A stretch of DNA of 32,580 bases, taken from assembly GCA_943328785.2 (NCBI GenBank), contig CALQBJ020000012.1:1-32580 (forward strand), read 5' to 3'. The position numbers and the translations under genes were made by a program. Positions 64-6,235 of this stretch are shown here, in pieces; position 1 is the first letter of the stretch, and every line of letters starts with the position of its first letter. The notes under the pieces are model-generated. The model was not told the DNA's origin. It was given only the letters and a program-made list of their open reading frames with translations, and ran no database searches. Source of the stretch: Bifidobacterium breve. GTDB taxonomy: Bacteria > Acidobacteriota > Vicinamibacteria > Vicinamibacterales > CAVVIG01.

Positions 64-92
64 TTGACTCAACTCCGCTAAATCGATGTAAT
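64..92 (+). promoter_or_regulatory. Sigma-70-type promoter for the pheA-ilvBNC leader
   Basis: TTGACT (64-69), 17-nt spacer, TGTAAT (87-92), in an AT-rich patch of an otherwise GC-rich window. Confidence 0.6.
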
Positions 93-101
93 TTGTTGCG
101 C

Positions 102-191
102 ATGCTGCTAGTTTCAAATCCCGTCGTTTCGATCGCCGGAGCCGTCGTCGGCTTCGTGGTCGTCGTGACGGGCGTCCGGCCAACCGGATGA
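102..191 (+). CDS. Putative attenuator leader peptide MLLVSNPVVSIAGAVVGFVVVVTGVRPTG (29 aa)
   Basis: Short ORF with 10 Val, 2 Leu and 1 Ile of 29 residues, between a promoter and a terminator-like hairpin ahead of a BCAA operon. Confidence 0.6.
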   Translation: MLLVSNPVVSIAGAVVGFVVVVTGVRPTG

Positions 192-251
192 TGGCAGTGC
201 AGCGTTCAGCAGCTCAGAGGCCATCGTCCGCACAGGATTGATGGCCTTTTT
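173..251 (+). promoter_or_regulatory. Transcription attenuator (alternative hairpins 1:2, 2:3, 3:4)
   Basis: 1:2 CGTCCGG(173-179)/CCGGATG(184-190), loop CCAA; 2:3 CGGATGATGGC(185-195)/GCCATCGTCCG(220-230), 11 bp with one GU; 3:4 AGGCCATC(218-225)/GATGGCCT(240-247) followed by T-run 247-251. Confidence 0.65.
218..251 (+). terminator. Intrinsic terminator/attenuator stem
   Basis: 8-bp perfect stem AGGCCATC-N14-GATGGCCT with TTTTT at 247-251. Confidence 0.6.
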
Positions 252-264
252 GCCGTACAGCGCC

Positions 265-2947: not shown

Positions 2948-3502
2948 ATGCAGACATTCGCCGTATACGTGGACAACAAGCCCGGTGTGCTGAACCGGGT
3001 GTCGTCACTCTTCCGCCGCCGCGCCTTCAACATCGAGTCGTTGACAGTGGGGCACACCGAGGTCTCCGGCCTCTCGCGCATGACCATCGTCGTGAACACC
3101 GACGAGCGGGGCGCGCGGCTGGTGGAAGCCAACCTGTACAAGCTGTTGCCGGTCCGCCGGGTGGACAACATCACGCGCGTTCCGACCATCGGCCGCGACC
3201 TGGCAATGATCAAGGTGCAGGCGACCGGCGATGCCCGGACGCAGGTCATGCAGCTCGTCGACGTCTACCGCGCCAGGATTGTCGATGTCAGCCCGGAGAC
3301 ACTGGTGATCGAAACCACCGGAACTGAAGATAAAATCGATAGCTTGCTTGAAGTGCTCAGGCCCTACGGGGTGATCGAGATGGTCCGGACGGGTCGCGTC
3401 GAAATGGTGCGCGGCACCTCGCAGGCGATCACCGTGGCTCCGTCGCGCGGCATCGGCGACGGGCCGACGCGGACGGCTGACGGCGGCGCCATCTCGGTCT
3501 AG
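2948..3502 (+). CDS. ilvN: Acetolactate synthase small (regulatory) subunit
   Basis: N-terminal ACT domain (YVDNKPGVLNRVSSLFRRRAFNIESLTVGHTE), position between ilvB and ilvC. Confidence 0.93.
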   Translation: MQTFAVYVDNKPGVLNRVSSLFRRRAFNIESLTVGHTEVSGLSRMTIVVNTDERGARLVEANLYKLLPVRRVDNITRVPTIGRDLAMIKVQATGDARTQVMQLVDVYRARIVDVSPETLVIETTGTEDKIDSLLEVLRPYGVIEMVRTGRVEMVRGTSQAITVAPSRGIGDGPTRTADGGAISV

Positions 3503-3637: not shown

Positions 3638-4669
3638 ATGGCGAAGATGTACTACGACGCGGACGCGGACCTCAGCCTCATTCAGGGCAAGAAGGTCGCG
3701 GTGATCGGTTACGGATCGCAGGGCCACGCACACTCCCTCAATCTGAAGGACAGCGGCGTGAGCGTCCGTGTTGGCCTGTCGGCGACGAGCCGGTCGCGCG
3801 CGAAGGCGCAGGCGGCTGGTCTCGAAGTCGGCAACCCGGCGGAAGTGGCGGCCTGGGCCGACGTCATCATGATGCTCGTGCCGGACACCACGGCCGCGCG
3901 TCTGTTCAAGGAAGCGGTGGAGCCGAACCTGGCCGCCGGCAAGATGGTGATGTTCGCGCACGGCTTCAACATCCGCTTCGGCACGATCAAGGTCCGCGAG
4001 GACGTCGACGTGTCGATGGTGGCCCCGAAGTCGCCCGGTCATCGCGTGCGTGAGCTGTATGTCGAAGGCGCCGGCACCCCGGCCCTGTTTGCTGTGCACC
4101 AGGATGCCACCGGTCACGCCCGCGCCCTGACGCTGTCCTACGCCAAGGGCATCGGCGTCACCCGCGCCGGCGTCATCGAGACCACGTTCTCGGAAGAGAC
4201 CGAAACCGACCTGTTCGGCGAACAGGCCGTCCTCTGCGGCGGCGTCAGCGCGCTGGTGAAGGCGGGCTTCGAGACGCTCGTCGAGGCGGGCTACCAGCCG
4301 GAAGTCGCCTACTTCGAGTGCATGCACGAGCTGAAGCTCATCGTCGACCTGATGTACCAGGGCGGCCTGAACTACATGCGCTATTCGGTGAGCGACACGG
4401 CCGAGGCCGGCGACTACACCTCCGGTCCGCGCATCGTCACGGCAGAGACCAAGGCCGAGATGAAGCGTGTGCTCGACGACATCCGCAGCGGCAAGTGGGC
4501 GGCGGCCTGGGTCGAGGAGAACGCCACGGGCCGTAAGACCTTCGAGGCCACCCGTAAGTCCGAGCGCGCGCACCAGATCGAGAAGGTCGGCGCCCAGTTG
4601 CGCGGCATGATGCCGTTCCTGCGTCCGGTGACGATCACGGACGAGGACGTCAACAACCAGACCCTTTAG
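3638..4669 (+). CDS. ilvC: Ketol-acid reductoisomerase (class I)
   Basis: [54 protein letters not shown] motifs. Confidence 0.96.
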
Positions 4670-4672
4670 CTG

Positions 4673-6235
4673 ATGGCCAAAACACGTTCGGCTGAGGACC
4701 CGGCCGTCGTCCAGGCCCGTGAGTCGCGACGACTCTCCACGCTGCTGGAGATTAGCCACGCACTCTCGGGCACGCTGAATCTGCGATCGGCCCTGCACCG
4801 GGCACTCGAGATCCTGGCGAAGCACCACGGTACGGTCCGCAGCCTGATCGTGTTCCTGCACGATAATCGCGAACTGCACGTCGAGGCCGCCGATGGCCTC
4901 GACGCGCGCTCGCACGCCGTCCGGTATCGGGTAGGCGAGGGCATCATCGGCAAGGTGGTCGAGAGCAGCCGGCCGATTGTCGTCCCGCGCGTCAGCCAGG
5001 AACCGGAATTCCTCAACCGTGCCGCCAAGCGCGCGGACGTCCACAAGGACGAACTCAGCTTCATCTGCGTACCGATTCTGCTGAACCGGCGCGCCGTCGG
5101 CGCCATCGGCGTCGACCTCAAGTTCAACGCGGACCGCGACTACGAGCGCTACGTGAAGTTCCTCGGCATCGTGGCGTCGAGTATTGCTGCCGCAGTGAAG
5201 ATTCAGCGGCTGGTCGAGGAGGACAAGAAGCGCCTCGTCGACGAGAACACGCACCTCCGCCAGGAACTGAAGGAACGCTACGACTTCTCCAGCATCATCG
5301 GCAGCAGCGGCCCCGTCCGTCAGATGTACGAGCAGATGTCGCAGGTGGCCGCCACCAACACGACGGTGATGATTCGCGGCGAGTCGGGCACGGGCAAGGA
5401 ACTGGTGGCCCACTCGATTCATTACAACTCACCGCGTGCGAACAAGCCGTTCGTGAAGGTCAGTTGCGCGGCGCTGCCAGACAGCCTCATCGAATCGGAA
5501 CTCTTCGGCTACGAGCGCGGTGCCTTCACCGGCGCCGAGCAGCGGAAGAAGGGGCGCTTCGAGATGGCCGAGGGCGGCACGCTGTTCCTCGACGAAATCG
5601 GCGACATCCACCTGTCAACCCAGGTGAAGCTGCTGCGCGTCCTGCAGGAGCGTGAGTTCGAGCGGCTGGGCAGCACCGAAACCGTCAAGGTAAACGTGCG
5701 TCTGCTCGCCGCCACCAACAAGGACATGGAGCGGGCGATTGCCGCCGGTACCTTCCGCGAAGACCTCTACTACCGCCTGAACGTCTTCTCGATCTTCGTG
5801 CCGCCACTGCGCGAGCGGAAGGCTGACCTGCTGCTGCTTGTCGACCACTTCCTCGAGAAGTTCTCGCGTGAGCACCACAAGAACATCAAGCGCATCGCCA
5901 CGCCTGCCATCGACATGCTCATGAGCTATCACTGGCCCGGCAACGTCCGCGAGTTGGAGAACACGCTCGAACGTTCGGTGCTGATGTGCGATGGTCAGGT
6001 CATTCACGGGCATCACCTGCCGCCGTCGCTGCAGACGGCCGAAGCCTCTGGCACGGTGACACGCGTGTCGCTGAATGATGCGGTGGCCGGGTTCGAGAAG
6101 GACCTCATCCAGGACGCGCTGAAGACGACACGCGGCAACCGCGCCAAGGCGGCCCGCCTGCTCGACACCACCGAGCGCGTGCTGAACTACAAGGTGAAGA
6201 AATACGGCGTCGACGTCCGCCGCTTCACGTCCTAG
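4673..6235 (+). CDS. Sigma-54-dependent Fis-family regulator with N-terminal GAF domain (NifA-like)
   Basis: GESGTGKE Walker A, intact GAFTGA loop, GTLFLDEIGD Walker B, C-terminal Fis-type HTH (RGNRAKAARLLDTTERVLNYKVKKYG). Confidence 0.92.
   Translation: MAKTRSAEDPAVVQARESRRLSTLLEISHALSGTLNLRSALHRALEILAKHHGTVRSLIVFLHDNRELHVEAADGLDARSHAVRYRVGEGIIGKVVESSRPIVVPRVSQEPEFLNRAAKRADVHKDELSFICVPILLNRRAVGAIGVDLKFNADRDYERYVKFLGIVASSIAAAVKIQRLVEEDKKRLVDENTHLRQELKERYDFSSIIGSSGPVRQMYEQMSQVAATNTTVMIRGESGTGKELVAHSIHYNSPRANKPFVKVSCAALPDSLIESELFGYERGAFTGAEQRKKGRFEMAEGGTLFLDEIGDIHLSTQVKLLRVLQEREFERLGSTETVKVNVRLLAATNKDMERAIAAGTFREDLYYRLNVFSIFVPPLRERKADLLLLVDHFLEKFSREHHKNIKRIATPAIDMLMSYHWPGNVRELENTLERSVLMCDGQVIHGHHLPPSLQTAEASGTVTRVSLNDAVAGFEKDLIQDALKTTRGNRAKAARLLDTTERVLNYKVKKYGVDVRRFTS

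Follow-up and report, generated by a model that had tools for sequence, protein, structure and literature searches.

A short valine-rich open reading frame followed by a potential terminator lies upstream of a pheA-ilvBNC gene cluster in the genome of an uncultured Acidobacteriota bacterium, probably of the order Vicinamibacterales, and it raises the question of whether, and in response to which signal, the segment controls the genes behind it. The window (the whole stretch of DNA that was analysed, 32,580 nucleotides) belongs to contig C12 of a draft genome of 3.83 Mb and 312 contigs and starts at the contig end, so that only 63 nt are visible upstream of the −35 box discussed below. The cluster contains pheA (prephenate dehydratase, 339–1166; NF008865, 262 bits), ilvB (acetolactate synthase large subunit, 1221–2924; TIGR00118, 701 bits), ilvN (acetolactate synthase small subunit, 2948–3502; NF008864, 189 bits) and ilvC (ketol-acid reductoisomerase, 3638–4669; NF004017, 543 bits), all on the forward strand and all above their NCBIfam cut-offs, which confirms the gene assignments of the initial annotation. 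pheA is directly upstream of ilvB in the window and in genomes G001, G004, G016, G020 and G049; the gene order in most relatives is pheA-ilvD-ilvB, and the ilvD of the window's genome sits elsewhere (contig C236). A gene for a NifA/NorR-like sigma-54 activator (4673–6235) begins three bases past the ilvC stop codon and may be part of the same operon. We note that the segment at 299–336 immediately 5′ of pheA (AACAACTAACGACCAACGACTAAAGACCAACGACC) is a dispersed intergenic repeat, with 14 other genomic matches at E ≤ 0.001.

The putative control region occupies positions 64–251 of the forward strand. Direct reading and comparison with relatives place a promoter at 64–92, with a −35 box (TTGACT, 64–69), a 17 bp spacer and a −10 box (TGTAAT, 87–92). 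The leader reading frame (102–191; ATG at 102, TGA at 189–191) codes for a 29-residue peptide (MLLVSNPVVSIAGAVVGFVVVVTGVRPTG) with ten valines and one phenylalanine, the amino acid to whose precursor the pheA step leads; valines 15, 16, 19–22 and 25 (144–176) are the likely control codons, as judged from the classical mechanism. Downstream of these codons there are three potential stems. Stem 1:2 (173–179/184–190, seven pairs) could act as an anti-antiterminator or pause hairpin; region 2 (185–195), which contains the stop codon and the family-wide GGATGATG core, forms the 5′ arm of the antiterminator; and region 3 (218–230) pairs either with region 2 (through 220–230) or with region 4 (through 218–225), and both alternatives covary. 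Region 4 (240–247) and the T-run (247–251) complete the terminator (218–251). Promoter, leader and stems are present to the base as initially annotated, and every pair proposed for 1:2, 2:3 and 3:4 is a standard one. A generic promoter and terminator scan of the window detected neither element at its thresholds, because the −10 box lacks the A required at position 2 and the terminator is outside the limits of the scan, and the promoter and terminator calls thus rest on conservation. The sequence has no Shine-Dalgarno site 5′ of the leader ATG, which is 9 nt downstream of the −10 box. At so short a distance the transcript would start at or beside the ATG, and the leader mRNA is therefore probably leaderless.

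The predicted energies are compatible with a switch between these structures. The isolated helices 1:2, 2:3 and 3:4 have energies of −11.0, −17.9 and −12.5 kcal/mol respectively, and the full terminator hairpin −20.1 kcal/mol; antiterminator (185–195/220–230) and terminator exclude each other, since both use positions 220–225. The segment 95–260 folds with z = −6.3 relative to dinucleotide shuffles, none of 200 of which is as good. In computed folds the full leader without translation adopts 1:2 together with 3:4, which corresponds to termination. With a ribosome placed at Val22, the RNA preceding region 4 folds into the 11 bp antiterminator (−24.8 kcal/mol), and with a ribosome at the stop codon the terminator alone is left (−24.1 kcal/mol). 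These modelled states agree with the logic proposed initially, in which stalling at valine codons favours the antiterminator and arrival at the stop favours the terminator. The accompanying label of 'translational attenuator' is a misnomer, as the switch would act on transcription, and ribosome-mediated transcription attenuator is the appropriate term.

We are confident, if short of certain, that the element is a ribosome-mediated transcription attenuator that would sense charged tRNA-Val and control pheA-ilvBNC, with the valine dependence deduced from the codons. In the scheme that we infer from the sequence, from the start site through to the dependence on valine, transcription would begin at or a few bases from the leader ATG, and a ribosome would enter the valine-rich leader without a Shine-Dalgarno site. 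When valine is plentiful the ribosome would reach the TGA and cover region 2, so that 3:4 forms and the polymerase stops near position 251. When valine is scarce it would stall on the valine run, and 2:3 would pair ahead of the synthesis of region 4, giving readthrough into pheA-ilvBNC. Counting against this reading are the limited conservation of stem 1:2, the relatives described below whose pheA has no attenuator, the single phenylalanine in a leader ahead of pheA, and the absence of another copy from the genome.

The arrangement is conserved upstream of pheA in relatives. Sixteen pheA-class loci, including that in the window, keep the promoter, a valine-rich leader that stops within or close to region 2 (bearing out the initial annotation, which put the stop codon inside that region) and the terminator. 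Their −35 boxes are TTGAC or TGGAC, with spacers of 17–18 bp, and the −10 box is TNTAAT in 15 and CACAAT in one; the ATG follows the −10 box by 8–13 nt (median 9), a spacing that is longer in other leader classes. The terminator reads GGCCATCATCC...GGTGATGGCC-Tn or a version of it with compensating changes, and the leader ends with the same TGA in most relatives and with the TAG of ATGATGTAG in some. Valine accounts for 33% of the leader frame in this class vs 3–4% of the other two frames. An additional locus (L043), located upstream of pheA-ilvD and preceded by a run of N, has TGTAAT and a distance of 8 bases. At five other loci (L042, L058, L061, L062 and L065) a similar promoter runs straight into the pheA ATG and there is no attenuator; in these, pheA starts a few bases past the −10-like box and itself looks leaderless, as does the hom gene of the window's own genome (upstream region L268).

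Covariation is seen in both alternative helices. An initial set of 15 sequences gave eight doubly changed cells in 3:4, the terminator, vs 1.3 in shuffles, and too little variation in the antiterminator 2:3 to judge. A larger alignment (A3) comprises 84 matches of covariance model R1, three rows of which are reverse-strand noise from the palindromic terminator. Across these 84 copies 3:4 is 97.5% paired with 39 doubly changed cells vs 1.3 in shuffles, a count biased towards 3:4 by the fitting of A3 to that helix; 2:3, which is outside the model, reaches 88.4% pairing and shows 34 doubly changed cells vs 15.3 ± 2.9 (0 of 500 shuffles as high), and kinship among the sequences inflates such counts. 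A clear case of compensation is GGGTG with CACCC replacing GGATG with CATCC, and in one locus (L047) all three strands have changed jointly (GGCTGACGG / CCGTCAACC / GGATGACGG). Stem 1:2 generalizes least: a clear form occurs only in the window and the near relatives L077, L124 and L125, and an upstream pairing of region 2 is present in 34 of 80 copies. The initial annotation had expected relatives to retain the leader frame, its valine codons and compensatory pairs in all three stems, and this holds for the frame, the codons, 2:3 and 3:4 but not generally for 1:2. The element is also found independently, in that a profile HMM built without the window's whole family matches window positions 180–252 with E = 3.7e-10, the remaining window matches being the opposite strand of the same hairpin (E = 0.002) and places with E > 0.1. 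A covariance model with the window included in its build, run over the whole 3.8-Mb genome, identifies the window element (5e-13) and no second copy (next best E = 2.5), and the ilvD and homoserine dehydrogenase genes of this genome have no such element upstream.

Sequence comparisons indicate that the window element belongs to a larger Acidobacteriota family in which a single RNA core, GGATGATG...GGCCATCATCC...GGTGATGGCC-Un, is combined with differing leader peptides. Of 162 genomes from the order, 93 carry the core (model R1, E up to 0.01), often with two to five matches per genome, some of which are reverse-strand echoes; such reverse-strand matches were rejected as real copies because they are the palindromic terminator read backwards. 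Model R2 (E up to 1e-5) identifies it in 40 of 396 genomes drawn evenly from the phylum, 24 within the order and 16 elsewhere. When 85,462 species genomes were scanned with a pattern, 69 loci emerged; R1 scores exceed 37 bits at 45 of them, and 42 of these 45 are labelled Acidobacteriota (Vicinamibacteria, Terriglobia [gp1, Sulfotelmatobacter], gp2, Blastocatellia and Chloracidobacterium); the other three are in MAGs labelled Woeseiaceae (L207) and Acidimicrobiia (L213, L225). Pattern matches labelled Proteobacteria or Actinobacteria are nearly all below 30 bits or unscored, and were set aside as mostly chance palindromes. At one locus labelled Betaproteobacteria, perhaps wrongly (L188, 29.9 bits), ilvD is preceded by a gp2-like Val/Ile leader.

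The composition of the leader tracks the gene that follows it (genes named here from conserved protein motifs), with Val/Ile before pheA, ilvD and ilvB, Leu before leuA, and Thr/Met before hom and lysC. The 39 leaders preceding pheA, ilvD, ilvB or ilvA contain 26% Val, vs 3% in the other frames and 5% in leaders before hom/lysC (Mann-Whitney p ~6e-9). The 19 hom/lysC leaders contain 22% Thr and 10% Met, vs 4% and 2% in the former class (Thr+Met, p ~2e-9); the loci are related, and both p-values thus overstate independence. Several single cases fit as well. Two leuA loci (L230, L227) have Leu-rich leaders, a threonine deaminase locus (L185) has a leader with AAIIIIGVL, hom-metY-metX (L152/L170) has the leader MGMAMRMRSMAAMSMRRRAGG as a Met case, and a siroheme synthase-sulfite reductase operon (L128/L160) has a leader with ICPICSCCC as a Cys case. 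The isoleucyl-tRNA synthetase gene ileS (L145/L169) also has the core upstream, here with a leader frame that is rich in Ile and starts at GTG; control by a leader peptide would be unusual for this gene. Copies with Leu-rich leaders also precede a small ORF of 46–90 residues (L119, L120, L122, L123, L136, L139, L140; ~440–820 in the oriented loci), which has a conserved C-terminal GYG(H/F/Y)G(V/I), matches no Pfam or NCBIfam family above cut-off, is convergent with ilvC in f2 genomes and has a relative in 12 of the 162 genomes of the order. Three copies with Val/Leu-rich leaders (L142, L144, L150) are located before LysR-type regulator genes, and in Blastocatellia, Chloracidobacterium and other Acidobacteriota the core lies before glutamate synthase genes with no clear leader signal (L206, L223, L226, L250).

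Other accounts of the window element can be weighed against these patterns. Attenuation could respond to several amino acids (Val, Leu and Ile together, or Phe by way of pheA) rather than mainly to valine, as ilvBNC supplies all three branched-chain amino acids and the leaders of the branched-chain class contain Ile (9%) and Leu (8%) in addition to their 26% Val. These Ile and Leu contents nevertheless show no difference from hom/lysC leaders (p ~0.2) and the run closest to the stop codon in the window is of valine, so that we regard a multi-amino-acid signal as rather unlikely. A few of the leaders contain Phe, but it averages 4% in the pheA class, and control by phenylalanine through pheA was rejected on leader composition. 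If instead the hairpin terminated an upstream or leader transcript constitutively, with the short ORF untranslated or non-regulatory, the lack of a Shine-Dalgarno site before the leader ATG would fit; but conservation and covariation extend to the frame, its valine bias, the position of the stop codon in region 2 and the 2:3 alternative, and a constitutive terminator does not explain a leader composition that changes with the downstream gene, making this very improbable. We give marginally less credence still to an incidental peptide in a leader RNA that binds a small molecule or protein, as in a riboswitch, a T-box or the target of a regulator such as the sigma-54 activator. The strong conservation of the RNA core and the presence of that regulator gene (4673–6235) after ilvC are in its favour, whereas no Rfam family matches, and the core lies upstream of genes for six amino-acid pathways and its leaders match the pathway. 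The combination of one core with pathway-matched leaders argues that specificity sits in the codons.

A separate choice concerns how the core came to precede such different operons. The copies could represent convergence on a good switch, but the bases shared in regions 2, 3 and 4 and past the stop codon (TGATGTAGCC) make a common origin likely. A fuller account, towards which we lean slightly, is that an ancestral core was copied between Acidobacteriota operons and the leader recoded each time, giving rise to a phylum-wide family of at least Val, Leu, Ile, Thr, Met and Cys sensors that would also control ileS and the undescribed small-protein gene.

Proteobacteria and Actinobacteria are the groups in which attenuation by leader peptides is best known, and the classical trp, his, ilv and thr attenuators of Proteobacteria have a leader peptide with control codons, mutually exclusive antiterminator and terminator, a T-run, and a stop codon that favours termination. 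The window element shares with these, and with E. coli ilvB (ivbL), the leader peptide, exclusive hairpins, T-run and stop placement, and the initial comparison with ivbL is thus apt. It differs from them in having no Rfam match, in being probably leaderless and in controlling an operon that starts with pheA, and the Acidobacteriota element differs from the classical ones in that one RNA core serves operons of different amino acids. Branched-chain-rich uORFs before ilvB have been described in Corynebacterium, ilvB-OMG RNAs and Leptospira (PMC10272879), and the Corynebacterium glutamicum ilvBNC attenuator has mutational support (PMC11857589); its leader peptide is made without a ribosome binding site, according to Morbach 2000 as cited in PMC10272879. 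The Corynebacterium ilvB-II, ilvB-OMG and Leptospira ilvB motifs have a branched-chain-rich uORF, alternative hairpins and a terminator before ilvB, as in the window, but they occur in different phyla and have no Rfam match with it (the Rfam copy used may not include all three). Leader peptides have been predicted at several actinobacterial operons (trp, ilvB, leuS and leuA), together with a LEU element and conserved complementary triples in the trp attenuators (PMC1262725). Here too, amino-acid operons of a non-proteobacterial group combine a leader peptide with a terminator, although each operon type there has its own element whereas in Acidobacteriota one core carries Val, Leu, Ile, Thr, Met and Cys leaders. 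According to a 2010 survey, the attenuators predicted in Acidobacteria almost all lack an associated function (PMC2965389).

The window and six related loci gave no gathering-score match to an Rfam leader, T-box or riboswitch family, and Rfam searches without thresholds of the window and relatives returned chance-level matches only (E up to 10). No published description of the element was found in the open-access literature, a coverage outside which most subscription papers fall; the initial annotation likewise knew of none for this lineage. The mechanism is already known, and it is the shared, recodable core and its lineage that seem new to description. If the interpretation is correct, the specificity carried by the leader codons would allow amino-acid regulons to be read from sequence across a large and mostly uncultured soil phylum, and the family would offer a natural system for studying how attenuators are copied and retargeted.
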